NCBI GenBank assembly: GCA_016223145.1
Contig: JACRPN010000022.1
Span: forward strand, 62,001-126,000
Source: Armatimonadota bacterium
GTDB taxonomy: Bacteria; Armatimonadota; Fimbriimonadia; Fimbriimonadales; Fimbriimonadaceae
Length of the DNA: 64,000 nucleotides
Direction of reading: 5' to 3'
Shown here one piece after another: positions 4,138-62,802 of the stretch. The position numbers and the translations under genes are program-made. How positions within the stretch are numbered: position 1 is the stretch's first letter; every line of letters starts with the position of its first letter. The notes under the pieces are model-generated. The model was not told the DNA's origin and ran no database searches. It saw only the letters and a program-made list of their open reading frames with translations.

Positions 4138-4158
4138 GCCCAGGCGTCCCGCCTGGGC
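4138..4158. terminator. perfect 9-bp hairpin between operons
   Basis: GCCCAGGCG-TCC-CGCCTGGGC. There is no T-run, so it may be a repeat element, a processing hairpin or a weak terminator after the lipoprotein. Confidence 0.45.
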
Positions 4159-4326
4159 AATCCGCGTTCAGCGATTGTCAAGCCAGGGCGCCAAGGCACC
4201 ATTTTGCATGTGCCGCAGTAGGGCCAATTCACGTCTCTTTTGCGAGACCTGAGCTAAACTGGACGAACGTTGGGACCATTGGGAACCCGCGTTGCAGATT
4301 GCTCCGTACTGTTTGGCAGAGTCAAC

Positions 4327-13611: not shown

Positions 13612-13766
13612 CTTTGAGAGATTGGCCTCCAAGGGTCTTCCGGGCCAGAGGAGTTTGCCGCTCTAAGCAGCGTCCCGGGGGGCGCTCCGTACAACGGCAC
13701 ACGGCTCAGGCCTTTCGGGCACCAATGATACCACAGGTGAAGTGGGAATAGCGAGTTATGGCGTAG

Positions 13767-13813
13767 CCCCTCCCTTGGCTTTGACGCAGTCGAAACTGAG
13801 GGAGGGGTTGGGG
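13767..13813 (-). repeat. dispersed palindromic element, copy 1
   Basis: Read on the minus strand: CCAACCCCTCCCT, a loop containing TTTCGACTGCGTCAAA, then AGGGAGGGGCT. Arms CCCCTCCCT/AGGGAGGGG pair perfectly. The same element recurs near 26.05, 31.61, 36.24, 52.95, 56.94, 57.00, 59.85 and 62.75 kb. Confidence 0.85.
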
Positions 13814-13867
13814 AGGGGAGACGGGCCTTCACCTTTGGTCTCAAGCGGGAAGGCAGAGAGCTGGGTG

Positions 13868-14182
13868 GCGCGGGCACGGAACCCGCGGCTACGCATCCCC
13901 TTTGCCAGCTTCCTCTTTGCGCGCGGGCACGGAACCCGCGGCTACGCATCCCCTTTGCCATCGGCCTCCTTGCGCGCGGGCACGGAACCCGTGGCTACGC
14001 ATCCCCTTTGCCATCGGCCTCCTTGCGAGCGGGCACGGAACCCGTGGCTACGCATCCCCTTTGCCATCGGCCTCCTTGTGCGCGGGCACGGAACCCGCGG
14101 CTACGCATCGGCTACGCATCCCCTTTGCCAGCTTCCTCCTTGCGCGCGGGCACGGAACCCGCGGCTACGCATCCCCTTTGCC
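13868..14182. repeat. six-copy tandem array, 53-bp unit
   Basis: Six near-identical units whose CGGGCAC landmarks start at 13871, 13924, 13977, 14030, 14083 and 14147. The period is 53 bp, except the fifth interval of 64 bp, explained by an 11-bp duplication (GGCTACGCATC). Each unit holds a hairpin GCGGG-CACGGAA-CCCGC followed by GGCTACGCATCCCCTTTGCC. Units alternate between two tails (AGCTTCCTC and ATCGGCCTC). Whole units repeat with no variable spacers, so it is not CRISPR. A related hairpin occurs twice at 48.66-48.78 kb. Confidence 0.9.
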
Positions 14183-14201
14183 AGCAGGGCCAGGAATACG
14201 G

Positions 14202-31293: not shown

Positions 31294-31607
31294 GTCCCCG
31301 TAAACGCCGCGGCCAGTCCCTTTGGCACGGCAATTCACAATGGTTGCGCCCCGCAATCGCCCAGAACGTTCGGCAGACCCGCCGCCCTGTACGGGGGTGG
31401 CTCAATGCGCAAGTCCGTGAAACCTTTTGGCCGAGACACCTTGTGCTTTCAGCCGGTTCATGTCAAGGCTGCAAACAGGTCGCCCCAACAGGGCCTGTCT
31501 GGTGTGGTTGCCGCGGAACCAGTGCTTCGCCCTTCGCTTCAGCAGGTCAGCCTGTTGGCCCTCCAAGAGGGTTTGGTTCGCACTCCAGGCGAAGTCACAG
31601 GGTCTCC

Positions 31608-31653
31608 CACCCCAACCCCTCCCTCATTTTCGACTTCGGCAAAAACAAGGGAG
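31608..31653 (+). repeat. dispersed palindromic element, copy 3
   Basis: CCAACCCCTCCCT, loop with TTTTCGACTTCGGCAAAAA, then AGGGAGGGGCT. Lies 12 bp from the gdhA stop. Confidence 0.85.
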
Positions 31654-31664
31654 GGGCTCGGAGC

Positions 31665-48616: not shown

Positions 48617-48733
48617 AAGGATGAAGGGACAATGGGACGTGGAGACGAAGGGGCAAAGGGACGCGGTAGCCGAAGGTATCGTGCCTGCGTCCTCGGCTGA
48701 CCCCCGTAGGGCTGAATGATGAAGGGTAAGGCA
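48617..48733. repeat. G-rich tract and first copy of a 36-bp repeat
   Basis: AGGGACAATGGGACG / GGGGCAAAGGGACG words (48625-48663) followed by GCGGTAGCCGAAGG..CGTGCCTGCGTCCTCGGC (48662-48697). The second copy at 48741-48777 lies inside the next gene. Confidence 0.75.
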
Positions 48734-49573
48734 ATGGGAAGCGCGGTAGCCGCAGGTTCCGTGCCTGCGTCCTCGGCGGGCTTAACGCCCGGCGACTCTC
48801 TTCTCGCCTCCTGCCGCGACCTCTCGTGCGGCTACCCAGGCCGGGTCGTCCTGGAGGGTGTCAGCCTCGACCTGCGCCCGGGCGCCAAAATCGCCCTTCT
48901 GGGCCCGAACGGCAGCGGCAAATCCACCCTGCTCAAGACACTCTGCGGAGCGATTCCCTCCCTCAAGGGAACGGTCGACCTCGCCGGGTCACCTGTTGAG
49001 GGCCTCTCAAGCTCCGAAATCGCCAAGCGCGCCAGCTACGTGCCCCAGGAGGAGGCGCCACCTTTCCGGTTCAGCGTCCGCCAAGTTGTCGTCATGGGCA
49101 GGCTGCCCCACTCCACGGGCCTCTTCGACACGCCCGAAGACCTGAAGGTCGCCGACGAAGCGATGCGCATGGCCGACTGCCTTTCGCTCGCCGATCGCCC
49201 GATCACCGAGATCAGCGGCGGAGAGAAGCAGCGGGTTTTGGTCGCGCGAGCCCTGGCCCAGCAAGCGCCCGTGATGCTGCTCGACGAACCCACCTCTCAC
49301 CTCGACGTCGCCCACCAGATGGCGATCTCAAAGCTGATCCGGGACCTGGCCGCGCGGGGCTACGCGATTCTGGCGGCCGTTCACGATCTGAATCTCGCGG
49401 CCGAATTTGCGGAGGAGGCGATCCTCCTGAGCGGAGGGCGGGTGGCGCTTCAAGAGCCCATCCGAGAGGCCCTCACGGACCCGCGGCTCGATGATGCCTA
49501 CGGGGTGACGTTCCGAAGGATCGAAGACGGCGACACGCTCCGCGTGTTCCCGGAAGCGCTGCGCGTGCCGTAG
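48734..49573 (+). CDS. ABC transporter ATPase (siderophore/cobalamin type)
   Basis: 279 aa: Walker A GPNGSGKSTLLKTL, Q-loop YVPQEE, signature ISGGEKQR and Walker B VMLLDEPTSHLD, followed by AVHDLNLAAEFAE, typical of FecE/BtuD/HmuV. No permease or binding protein nearby. The ATG at 48734 has AAGGG 7 nt upstream; the in-frame ATG at 48716 is possible. The first ~15 residues (AVAAGSVPASSAG) are coded by a repeat element, so the true N-terminus may have been extended by the insertion. Confidence 0.9.
   Translation: MGSAVAAGSVPASSAGLTPGDSLLASCRDLSCGYPGRVVLEGVSLDLRPGAKIALLGPNGSGKSTLLKTLCGAIPSLKGTVDLAGSPVEGLSSSEIAKRASYVPQEEAPPFRFSVRQVVVMGRLPHSTGLFDTPEDLKVADEAMRMADCLSLADRPITEISGGEKQRVLVARALAQQAPVMLLDEPTSHLDVAHQMAISKLIRDLAARGYAILAAVHDLNLAAEFAEEAILLSGGRVALQEPIREALTDPRLDDAYGVTFRRIEDGDTLRVFPEALRVP
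48741..48777. repeat. second copy of the 36-bp repeat, in frame at the ABC gene start
   Basis: Reverse complement reads CGCAGG-CACGGAA-CCTGCG-GCTACCGC. Compare the 53-bp array at 13.9 kb (CGCGGG-CACGGAA-CCCGCG-GCTACGC): the loop is identical and the arm change G to A is matched by C to T, preserving pairing. Confidence 0.8.
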
Positions 49574-54096: not shown

Positions 54097-54621
54097 ATGG
54101 AGGTTGTTACGAGAGAGTTCTCCTTGCCGGCTGTTCAGGCGAAATCGATAGCTCGGAAACTGATCGTTAGGAACGGGCTCTGGAAGGTGCCAGTGGTCAT
54201 CGGAGTACAAGGTCCGGTGTGGTTCTTAATCGTGTGGAGGCACTCTCTGTGGTGGGCGTTTGTCTTCGCGGCCGCATACATCCTGGGGGCGCTCCACCTA
54301 TCCCGACGTCTCTTGGGAATGTATGAGCGTTCACTCCAGCAAATGGGGTTCGGACAGAACTCTCCGATGTACGTTAGGTTCTCGGACACTGGTGCTGAGG
54401 CGTTTTCCGACGGCAAAAGAGGACTGTCGCTCCCTCTTTCGGACATTATCAGCTGCGAACGGCTTTGTGGAGTTCTACTCATGGGGACTTTGGAGGGAAA
54501 GAACTTGGCAGTTCCATTGGCGGCGTTCTCCGCAGAAACAGATCTCCTTGCCGTCGAACACCAACTCAATCTAGCAGTCACTGATAACCGTGGGCTGAAG
54601 CTAAGCGGAGCTGCCTCGTGA
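54097..54621 (+). CDS. YcxB-like membrane protein
   Basis: 174 aa with two membrane helices (VVIGVQGPVWFLIVW; LWWAFVFAAAYILGALHL) and a C-terminal beta domain (MYVRFSDTGAEAFSDGKRGLSLPLSDI) of the kind called YcxB-like. Function unknown. GGAGAGG precedes the ATG, 9 bp after the ubiA stop. Lower GC than the flanks. Overlaps the next gene by 4 bases. Confidence 0.75.
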   Translation: MEVVTREFSLPAVQAKSIARKLIVRNGLWKVPVVIGVQGPVWFLIVWRHSLWWAFVFAAAYILGALHLSRRLLGMYERSLQQMGFGQNSPMYVRFSDTGAEAFSDGKRGLSLPLSDIISCERLCGVLLMGTLEGKNLAVPLAAFSAETDLLAVEHQLNLAVTDNRGLKLSGAAS

Positions 54622-56024
54622 AAGTCGCCGTTGTCGGAGCAGGGATTTCGGGGCTGTATGCCGCGCGGAGGGTGGAGGCTTCCGGCGCGGAGGTGCGCGT
54701 CTTTGAGGCCACCGACCGCCTCGGCGGGCGCATCCAGACCGTCCACCGCGACGGCCTGGTCTATGAGGCCGCCGCCGAGTGGATCCTCCCCGAGCACCAG
54801 CGCGCGCTGACCTTGGCGCGCAGCCTCGGGCTGCCGCCCATCGAGAGCCCCACCGGGCCGAACACGCTGTTCTACAAGGGCGAGACGAACTCCGGCGCGA
54901 GCCTCTGGGAGGACGCCGCTCTCGACGACCAACGCCTGAAACAGGAGCTCGACTCGCTGCTGGAGACCCTAGACAACCCCAAGGTCACGGCGTTCCAGGT
55001 TGGGCGGCTGGACACCCTGAGCCTGCAGATCCTCATCAAGTCCAAAGCGCTCAGCGAGCGCGGGGCGTGGTGGCTGGAATCCAAACTCCGCGCCGAGATG
55101 CGCGAGGACCCCGGGCGGATCAGCGTCTACGGCTATCTGGTTCAGGCCAAGCGCGATCGGGCACGCGCCGCTTCCACCACGGCGTTTCGTATTCCTGGAG
55201 GCATGTCGGAGCTGGTCGCAAAGCTCGCCGCCAGCCTGAAGAGCCCAGTCCAGACCGGCAAGCGCCTCGTGAATACCGAATGGAAGGAAAACCAGGTGTT
55301 CCTGACCTTCGCCGACGGGACGAGTGAGAACTTCGACCAGGCGGTCCTCGCCATGCCGCCCAAAGCGCTGCTGCAGGTGGCCATCACTCCATCCATCTCC
55401 CCCAAAAAGCGAGCGGCCTGGGAGGCGGCGGTCTACGGCCGGGCGGTCAAGGTGTGTTTGGAGTTCAGCCGGGACTGGTGGACCGAGATCGGCTGGAACG
55501 GCCGGTTGATGACGAATAGGCCGATCCAGCGGACTTGGGACGGAACTCTGGGGTCTGGGGTGCAGGGTCTGGGGTCTGGGCCCGACAAGGCAGCCGTGTC
55601 GGACATGTCGGACCGGTCGGACAAGGCTGACAAGTCAGATCAGACGAACACCGGAAGTTCTGCCCCCCCAACCGCAACAGACCGCCCCTCGGTCCTCAAC
55701 GTCTGGATCTGCGGCAAGGCCGCTGAGAGTTGGGCCCGGTTCTCCGACCCCGTTCGCGGGTGCCTGGAAGACCTCGCCGGCCACTTCCCTCAGGCGAAGG
55801 AGCACTTCACAGGTGGGACCTGGACCGCGTGGCTGGCCGATTCACCCTCGGGCGGGGCCTACATGTTCCCCTCGACCGGATTCGTGCTCGCTCACAGCGA
55901 GAACCTCATCACGCCGGAGGGTCGGCTTCACTTTGCGGGCGACTTCTGGGGAGAGAGCGCCGGCCGCATCGAGGGTGCGCTGGATTCGGCGGAGCGGGTG
56001 TCCACAGAGGTATCGCTCTCTTGA
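54618..56024 (+). CDS. flavin-containing amine oxidase
   Basis: 468 aa. FAD-binding dinucleotide motif VAVVGAGISGLYAARRV, then FEATDRLGGRIQTV, and the C-terminal LHFAGDFWGESAGRIEGALDSAER that closes the FAD site in monoamine oxidases and related enzymes. Substrate unknown. Around residues 310-345 it carries a Gly/Ser/Asp insertion (SGVQGLGSG, then SDMSDRSDKADKSD) encoded by two repeat types. This sits in a strand-rich substrate-domain region where family members have a short turn. Confidence 0.9.
   Translation: MKVAVVGAGISGLYAARRVEASGAEVRVFEATDRLGGRIQTVHRDGLVYEAAAEWILPEHQRALTLARSLGLPPIESPTGPNTLFYKGETNSGASLWEDAALDDQRLKQELDSLLETLDNPKVTAFQVGRLDTLSLQILIKSKALSERGAWWLESKLRAEMREDPGRISVYGYLVQAKRDRARAASTTAFRIPGGMSELVAKLAASLKSPVQTGKRLVNTEWKENQVFLTFADGTSENFDQAVLAMPPKALLQVAITPSISPKKRAAWEAAVYGRAVKVCLEFSRDWWTEIGWNGRLMTNRPIQRTWDGTLGSGVQGLGSGPDKAAVSDMSDRSDKADKSDQTNTGSSAPPTATDRPSVLNVWICGKAAESWARFSDPVRGCLEDLAGHFPQAKEHFTGGTWTAWLADSPSGGAYMFPSTGFVLAHSENLITPEGRLHFAGDFWGESAGRIEGALDSAERVSTEVSLS
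55546..55645. repeat. two repeat tracts inside the amine oxidase gene
   Basis: CTGGGGT/CTGGGGTGCAGGGT words (55546-55581), then GTCGGACATGTCGGACCGG-type decamers (55597-55645). The first matches, reversed, the asnS insertion; the second matches the pyrG-pyrR spacer. Together about 33 codons with no stop. Confidence 0.8.
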
Positions 56025-57682
56025 CCTTGCTGAACAACTTCCTCTGGGCCTTTGATGGTTCGCCGCAAGAGATGCTCATCGAGCATGGGCGCGTGGTCTG
56101 GCGTCGCGGGCCAAGCCCCGAGCGCCCCGAGGGAGCACAGGTCCAGGACCTTGGTGGCCAACTGCTGATGCCCGCCTTCATCGACGCGCACTGCCACTTT
56201 CTGCCGACCGGGCTCGACCTTTTGAAGTTGAACCTCGGCGGTTGCGGAACGCGCGATGAGGTGCTAGCGAGGCTCAGGGATTGGGAGCGCAACATGGAGC
56301 CGGGAAAGTGGCTGCATGCGGTCCACTACGATCAGACGCGGTTTTCGGACGGAGTTCACCTGACGCGCTGGGATCTCGATCGGGTGATTCCCAGCCGGCC
56401 GGTGTTGCTGCGACACGTGAGCGGGCACGCCAGCGTGGCGAACACGGCGGCGCTCCAGGCGGCGGGTGTTCCTGATGGAGCCCCGGACCCGAAGGGCGGA
56501 TCGTTCGGGCGGGACGCCTCGGGCAGACTGGACGGCACGCTCTTTGAGAGGGTCCACGAGGAAGTCACCGCCGGGGCGCCGGACCCCAGTTTCGAGGAGA
56601 TGGTGCAGGGGATCCTGCTCGCGGGCAAGCGAATGAAAGAGCTGGGAATCGCCTGTGCCACCGACATGATGACCGGGCGATTCGGGCTCGCGCAGGAGCT
56701 CGACGCCTATGAGGAGGCGGTGAAACGGGGCTGCGAGGCAAGGGTGCGGCTGTATCCGGTGTGGTCGGCGGTGTTTGGGGGTCGAGGGATGGGCGACGAG
56801 GCGCTGCGGGAGCGGACCCGGCACTGGAATGCCGATCTGATCAAGCTGTGTGGCGTGAAGATCTTTGCCGATGGGGCGGTAGGCGCCGGGACGGCTGCAA
56901 TCTATGGGAGGTATGTGGCATCTGAGTTGTCTCCCCCCCCAACCCCCTCCTCAGTTTCCGCCGGAGCGAAAACCAAGGAGGGGGCTCCGGAGTCTCCCAC
57001 CCCAACCCCTCCCTCAGTTTCCGCCGGAGCGAAAACCAAGGGAGGGGCTTCCGGAACCTCCACCCCTCTGCCCACTCCCCCTATCGCCTCGCTACAAGGG
57101 GAGGGGGCTCAGACTTCTGGGCAGCTCCTTTATGCTCCTGAGCGGCTGAACGAGATGGTGCGGACCGCGCACAGCTCGGGATTTCGGATTGCGATCCACT
57201 CGATCGGGGATTACGCCACGGACCTCGTGATGGATGTCCTGGAGGCCACCGGCGAGCCAAGCAGACACCGCATCGAACACGCGATGCTGCTCTCAGATTC
57301 TCAGATCGAGCGTTTGGCGGGCCTTGGATGCCACGTCTCGATGCAGCCCGAGTTTCTGATCCGGTTCGCCCACGCCTACAAGCGGCAGCTTGGCCCCGAG
57401 CGAGCCTCGAAGATCAAAAGAATGCGCTCAGTGGTGGACGCGGGAATCGCGCTAAGCCTCAGCTCCGACCGGCCGATCGTCTCGGGCGACCCTTGGGTGG
57501 GGGTTCGGTGTGCATCGGATAGGCCGGAGGGGTTCGACCCTGCCGAAAACCTGACACGCATGGAGGCACTGCTCGGCTACACCCAGAAGGCCGCGGAAGC
57601 CAACGAGGACGGCGGCCGCATGGGCTCGCTCAGTGAAGGCCAGCTTGCGGACTGGATCGTCTGCGAGGGCGATTCGCGATAG
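56021..57682 (+). CDS. amidohydrolase (YtcJ-like, amidohydro_3)
   Basis: 553 aa from a TTG at 56021 that overlaps the amine oxidase stop (TTGA). Metal motif DAHCHF near residue 55, GHASVANTAAL, KIFADGAVGAGTAA, AIHSIGDYATDLVMD, HRIEHAMLL and SSDRPIVSGDP. Family members hydrolyse amides such as N-formyl or carbamoyl compounds; substrate unknown. Between the ADGAVGAG block and QLLYAPERL it carries about 60 extra residues (PSVSAGAKTKGGA repeated), coded by three palindromic elements in tandem. Confidence 0.9.
   Translation: MTLLNNFLWAFDGSPQEMLIEHGRVVWRRGPSPERPEGAQVQDLGGQLLMPAFIDAHCHFLPTGLDLLKLNLGGCGTRDEVLARLRDWERNMEPGKWLHAVHYDQTRFSDGVHLTRWDLDRVIPSRPVLLRHVSGHASVANTAALQAAGVPDGAPDPKGGSFGRDASGRLDGTLFERVHEEVTAGAPDPSFEEMVQGILLAGKRMKELGIACATDMMTGRFGLAQELDAYEEAVKRGCEARVRLYPVWSAVFGGRGMGDEALRERTRHWNADLIKLCGVKIFADGAVGAGTAAIYGRYVASELSPPPTPSSVSAGAKTKEGAPESPTPTPPSVSAGAKTKGGASGTSTPLPTPPIASLQGEGAQTSGQLLYAPERLNEMVRTAHSSGFRIAIHSIGDYATDLVMDVLEATGEPSRHRIEHAMLLSDSQIERLAGLGCHVSMQPEFLIRFAHAYKRQLGPERASKIKRMRSVVDAGIALSLSSDRPIVSGDPWVGVRCASDRPEGFDPAENLTRMEALLGYTQKAAEANEDGGRMGSLSEGQLADWIVCEGDSR
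56933..57110 (+). repeat. three palindromic elements in tandem inside the amidohydrolase gene
   Basis: Copy 6 (56941-56986, arms CCCCCTCCT/AGGAGGGGG), copy 7 (57003-57050, arms CCCCTCCCT/AGGGAGGGG), both with loop TTTCCGCCGGAGCGAAAACC, and a third variant (57074-57110, ACTCCCCCT..AGGGGAGGGGG, loop ATCGCCTCGCTACA). No frame break and no stop in this orientation. Confidence 0.9.
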
Positions 57683-59770: not shown

Positions 59771-59846
59771 ATGGGATGGATATGATACCCGCGGGGGGCA
59801 ATGGGGAGTTCTCAGGTGCTCAGGCATTCGTCAGTCGTGTCTCCAC

Positions 59847-59892
59847 CCCCAACCCCCTCCTCATTTACGAACCAAAACGAGGAGGGGGCTAC
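59847..59892 (+). repeat. dispersed palindromic element, copy 8
   Basis: CCAACCCCCTCCTC, loop ATTTACGAACCAAAAC, GAGGAGGGGGCT. Arms are perfectly paired; the loop is shared with the copy at 26.05 kb. Confidence 0.85.
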
Positions 59893-62701: not shown

Positions 62702-62802
62702 TCTCCCACCCTCCCGACTTCGTTCCCCTCGCTTCGCTCGGTGGGATCTGCGACAACCCCTCCCTCAGTTTCCACCAGAGCGAAAACCAAGGGAGGGGCT
62801 AT
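62702..62802 (+). repeat. dispersed palindromic element, copy 9 (extended form)
   Basis: Left module identical in layout to the copy at 52.9 kb, then CAACCCCTCCCT, loop CAGTTTCCACCAGAGCGAA, and AGGGAGGGGCT. It runs into the glnS stop codon, so the 3' end of glnS abuts or is derived from the element. Confidence 0.85.

Follow-up and report, generated by a model that had tools for sequence, protein, structure and literature searches.

The Rickettsia palindromic elements (RPE) are short palindromes, present in many copies, that lie in frame within unrelated, mostly housekeeping genes (PMC10969869; PMC3733652). Small palindromes are also found in coding regions of several species in the form of intragenic GTAG/CGTC REPs, whose host genes include uvrA and tRNA synthetase genes (Di Nocera 2013, PMC3733652). 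A third kind of repeat (PIT/BoxC/TMECO) is dispersed in many copies and has three 9-nt tracts in succession, rich in C or G, that can form a triplex (Holder 2015, PMC4666352); in E. coli K-12 every TMECO copy lies between genes (PMC4666352). On palindromic repeats in Armatimonadota, the literature searched, whose coverage is incomplete, held nothing relevant. The family described here resembles RPE in that palindromic repeats with hairpin potential occur in many copies, in frame, in unrelated protein genes, and as insertions. By their descriptions the two are nevertheless set apart, RPE having a reported length of about 150 bp and being found in Rickettsia, whereas our element measures 52-58 nt (near 80 nt in compound forms), is GC-rich, belongs to Fimbriimonadaceae and has a covarying third tract. 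It also differs from the intragenic REPs, as it carries neither the GTAG nor the CGTC tag and flanks none of the RAYT/Y1 genes examined. The family behaves like RPE and intragenic REPs with a PIT-type geometry, and appears to differ from RPE and REP in sequence as well as in phylum and geometry.

The window analyzed is a stretch of 64,000 nt (G000:C22:62001-126000) from a 3.87 Mb draft genome (97% complete, probably a MAG). Two copies of the element stand in tandem within an amidohydrolase gene (Table 1), as direct repeats of 63 nt (56929-56991 and 56992-57054) that are 87% identical, each an imperfect palindrome (DNA fold z -3.1 and -3.5). Their 27-nt core is identical, with 0 chance matches over 100 shuffles of the window, and the two adjacent copies use different arm types, as the sequence-only reading had noticed. 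That reading counted three tandem palindromic elements, which holds for the first two; the third folds weakly and gets no match to the family model at E 0.1, and hence appears to be a different or decayed element. Since the copies share their core, differ in arm type and have TCCGGA at both junctions, the slippage or recombination that had been proposed is no more likely than one copy having inserted into the end of the other, though recombination may have contributed to the tandem steps.

Table 1. Positions of the elements, their parts and the amidohydrolase gene in the window (position 1 is its first nucleotide)
Feature	Position	Strand	Basis or remark
Amidohydro_3 (PF07969) gene with insert	56021..57682	+	likely TTG start; Pfam E 4e-71
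Lineage-specific insert	56927..57103 (about)	+	residues 303 to about 361, ~59 residues, naturally variable loop
Element copy 1	56929..56986	+	type CCCCCTCCT/AGGAGGGGG; family model 77.8 bits
Copy 1, presumed third-strand tract TCCCCCCCC	56932..56940	+	family three-way covariation; C at the interruption here
Copy 1, left hairpin arm	56943..56951	+	fold and family pairing
Copy 1, right hairpin arm	56976..56984	+	fold and family pairing
TCCGGA at copy 1/copy 2 junction	56986..56991		again right after copy 2, about 57050-57055
Element copy 2	56992..57049	+	type CCCCTCCCT/AGGGAGGGG; family model 82.0 bits
Copy 2, presumed third-strand tract TCCCACCCC	56995..57003	+	family three-way covariation
Copy 2, left hairpin arm	57006..57014	+	fold and family pairing
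Copy 2, right hairpin arm	57039..57047	+	fold and family pairing
Third, weak palindrome (CTCCCCCT...AAGGGGAGGGGG)	57055..57118 (about)	+	in frame; fold z -1.8
Family copy	13765..13822	-	family model; no gene assigned
Family copy	31602..31658	+	family model; no gene assigned
Family copy 5' of MGMT-like gene	59839..59890	+	probably not coding; family model
Variant family copy	62746..62800	+	family model

The insert lies in frame between conserved blocks, as originally stated: the open frame 55727-57679 spans all repeat copies uninterrupted, and the 553-codon amidohydrolase frame is intact up to its stop at 57682. Its length had been put at about 60 residues, which stands, but the same 13 residues do not occur twice, the peptide being PSSVSAGAKTKEGA and then PPSVSAGAKTKGGA. 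Among the 61 relatives searched (those with names being Fimbriimonadaceae and other Armatimonadota), 56 have an orthologue of the gene. The comparison of orthologues that had been suggested as a check places the insert in G000 alone in its 59-residue version; it is missing from all 29 aligned sequences, where the AAIYG.. block connects to ..SG.L.Y by a loop that differs in length. An AlphaFold model (alignment of 33 sequences; mean pLDDT 88.4), which among solved structures comes closest to two metal-dependent hydrolases of Pyrococcus (3IGH and 3ICJ), has residues 305-358 as the sole segment with pLDDT below 50, coinciding with the insert, while the remainder is ordered. Residues invariant across the 33 homologues, likely metal ligands among them, are retained. 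The adjoining amine oxidase gene (window 54618-56024) has an in-frame low-complexity stretch of its own (GSGVQGLGSGPDKAAVSDMSDRSDKADKSDQTNTG), derived from different tandem repeats, and similar SD-rich stretches are present in the alanyl-tRNA synthetase (L101) and leucyl-tRNA synthetase (L089) genes.

A covariance model built from 32 copies gave 128 matches in G000 at the threshold of E 0.1, many of which represent one palindrome on both strands, so that about 95 distinct places remain; the genomic context was read in stretches around the copies. As regards known RNA families, a tRNA was the sole match in Rfam, and a scan of genome contigs with a single protein as query found nothing. The family is mainly present in Fimbriimonadaceae, with lineage-specific expansions. 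In a relative with a 5.23 Mb single-contig genome (G174), many near-identical copies of 53-54 nt with TCCGGA ends were observed (L246-L265), and these are distributed all round the chromosome, which suggests recent spread. The recurrence of the lengths 52, 55 and 58 was considered as a sign of selection for multiples of three; we dropped this idea, as the lengths follow a few loop types. In the window, a tandem array of five units with a 53-nt period (13868-14196) lies beside a family copy.

The end sequence is a recurrent feature; the family consensus starts with GTCTCC, and TCCGGA lies outside it. CCGGA stands immediately 5' of 11 of the 65 good copies in G000 versus about 0.1 expected, a roughly 100-fold excess; among 20 G174 copies, most carry TCCGGA at their ends, and both tandem junctions in the amidohydrolase gene contain it. 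Because TCCGGA is its own reverse complement, a terminal repeat and a target duplication look the same here.

In each element, a C-rich tract on the 5' side is followed by an AA loop and then by the two hairpin arms. Both-sided changes occur at 6 of the 15 hairpin pairs, 98% of the cells pair, and the covariation score of the hairpin lies above every one of 500 shuffles. The position of the interruption covaries three ways: the A or T interrupting the 5' tract is placed as in both arms in 64 of the 72 copies, which come from two genera, versus a mean of 31 and a maximum of 44 of 72 in shuffles. This geometry is that of a potential intrastrand triplex, its actual formation being putative, and the match of the third tract to both arms is what the element has in common with PIT/TMECO. 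It departs, however, from the TMECO pattern CCCTCNCCC-N3-6-GGGNGAGGG-N3-GGGNGAGGG, as its tracts are AGGGAGGGG or AGGAGGGGG; its first loop is 22-30 nt long with an inner stem, versus 3-6 nt in TMECO, and its second loop 2 nt; and many of its copies are in frame in genes.

The counts of host genes depend on Pfam and are lower bounds. Conserved domains (Pfam, NCBIfam) flank the copy on both sides in IleRS, LeuRS, GlnRS, PheRS-beta, AlaRS and aconitase A, and likewise in MurC-Ddl, MazG, GH20, GH2 and, weakly, GH38; support from one flank only was obtained for an M14 peptidase, 6PGD, a PKD protein and URO-D, and from neither for L037. AlaRS, LeuRS and aconitase are single-copy in G000, and the relatives searched do not have their inserts. 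Between congeners the insertion sites differ: in G012, where Pfam confirmed LeuRS, IspG, SAH hydrolase, CysRS and UvrA as hosts, the LeuRS gene carries five copies versus none in G261, and its HIGH- and KMSKS-like motifs are retained. The AlaRS gene of G000 additionally has an in-frame insert of 40-50 residues (L101:1120-1280) composed of palindromic repeats of two other types; this insert is not present in relatives. A copy near the N-terminus was not counted in the case of the MGMT, transaldolase and M24 peptidase genes, where the element probably lies upstream of the true start; in the MGMT-like gene, PF01035 matches residues 163-199 of the long frame and an ATG is available downstream of the element. 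Where two open reading frames meet at a copy, they were unrelated or unassigned neighbors in 10 of 10 pairs, and no split gene was found. The only frame-breaking copies encountered lie in duplicated uvrA fragments. A frame-shifting compound element is present in each of three dispersed fragments of the uvrA 3' part (L111, C9:247158-248994), fragment and element having apparently been multiplied together as one unit. In an adenylosuccinate lyase gene (purB, L061:2990-3140), two adjoining elements share one frame, with an in-frame TGA inside the first.

The element does have an open frame in the orientation seen in the amidohydrolase gene, as had been noted, but the prediction of stops in all frames that had been recommended along with it shows this to be nothing special. 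All three sense frames are nearly free of stops (2-5% of copies), and of the antisense frames (70, 10 and 43%) one is mostly open. What distinguishes the genic copies, judged from these counts, is the register used and not openness: 8 of 10 sense host genes, some of them supported by a domain on one flank only, share the register SPTPTPPSVS..KTKGGA (P 0.003 under equal use), which encodes a hydrophilic peptide, and all 8 antisense host genes read ..ETEGGVGEGD, the register that is mostly open. By inference, the insert is both translated and tolerated, and the cell probably makes enzymes with short floppy extra loops encoded by the repeat.

We consider it probable (about 0.85) that the insert is built from a palindromic element that is short, non-autonomous and probably mobile, and whose copies survive in genes and get translated when they keep the frame. 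Copies would land both within and between genes, and those disrupting a needed gene would be lost; the survivors would be those that keep the frame and add, where the protein surface tolerates it, a disordered hydrophilic loop made along with the enzyme. For the amidohydrolase, two or more copies would have come into tandem in a loop whose length varies among relatives. That the copies instead arose from nearby ones by slippage or recombination, without being mobile units, would fit the identical core of copies 1 and 2, but seems quite improbable given that single copies are dispersed over about 95 places, that near-identical ones are spread around the whole G174 chromosome and that the end sequence recurs.

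Translational bypass is known from yeast mitochondria, whose byp elements are GC-rich hairpins located in essential genes. Our elements are likewise GC-rich hairpins within essential genes, and the ribosome might skip them, or the RNA segment be removed, such that the enzyme is made without the insert. An open frame would be unnecessary for a skipped segment, yet the genic copies are stop-free, frame-preserving and biased in register, which speaks for hydrophilic peptides that are translated and against skipping or splicing-out of the segment, and frame-breaking copies turned up nowhere but in the uvrA fragments; we regard skipping as very unlikely. An insert that merely marks the decay of a dead or dying amidohydrolase is just as hard to credit: G000 does contain real debris, such as the purB copy with its TGA and the uvrA fragments, which are repeated and carry frame-shifting copies, and it exceeds its two congeners by about 1 Mb, but this gene, whose possible death had been raised by the sequence-only reading, does not look dead from its intact frame, invariant residues and complete predicted fold, and single-copy aminoacyl-tRNA synthetase genes show the same inserts. 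Selection for a function, whether as a useful loop or as a hairpin or triplex that regulates at the DNA or mRNA level, could be read from the strong three-way covariation, the high copy number and the recurrence of aminoacyl-tRNA synthetase genes as hosts. This appears improbable, as the host genes are functionally unrelated and their sites unshared by congeners, the covariation might stem from selection acting on mobility, and for TMECO of E. coli no regulatory role was found (PMC4666352).

A more far-reaching version of the mobile-element reading, which we put forward tentatively and hold to be rather less likely true than false, is that of a triplex-forming mobile family in Fimbriimonadaceae adapted to genes, with a hydrophilic open register in each orientation, for which coding sequences, including essential ones, are the normal habitat, which acts as a source of new loops, and which is moved by an undescribed system. 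Rickettsia is the best-known setting of in-frame palindromes, which are readily explained there by relaxed selection in small host-bound populations. The same phenomenon now occurs in another phylum, in genomes of 2.7-3.9 Mb, within essential enzymes, with up to five copies per LeuRS and with empty sites in congeners. The family thus opens ways of testing how proteins tolerate inserted repeats, whether new protein loops are supplied by such elements and whether triplex-forming DNA moves.

With respect to mobility, the element resembles MITEs in being short, non-autonomous and repeated, with what may be inverted-repeat ends, but we found no parent transposon for it and its terminal TCCGGA is self-palindromic. 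A link to Y1_Tnp transposases is weak. G000 has 12 Y1_Tnp matches, and within the family Y1_Tnp is present in every one of the 10 genomes that reach 5 or more element hits (hypergeometric P 0.0005, with phylogeny ignored); the 11 Y1_Tnp neighborhood loci of G000 gave no match to the family model. An origin as a RAYT/REP system seems unlikely, since no examined Y1 gene adjoins the element and at least three Y1/RAYT genes are bounded by other inverted repeats. Short repeats in the window at 48662-48697, 48742-48777 and 4139-4165 look like the inverted repeats on either side of RAYT-like genes (L243, L242), and are possibly REPs of those transposases.
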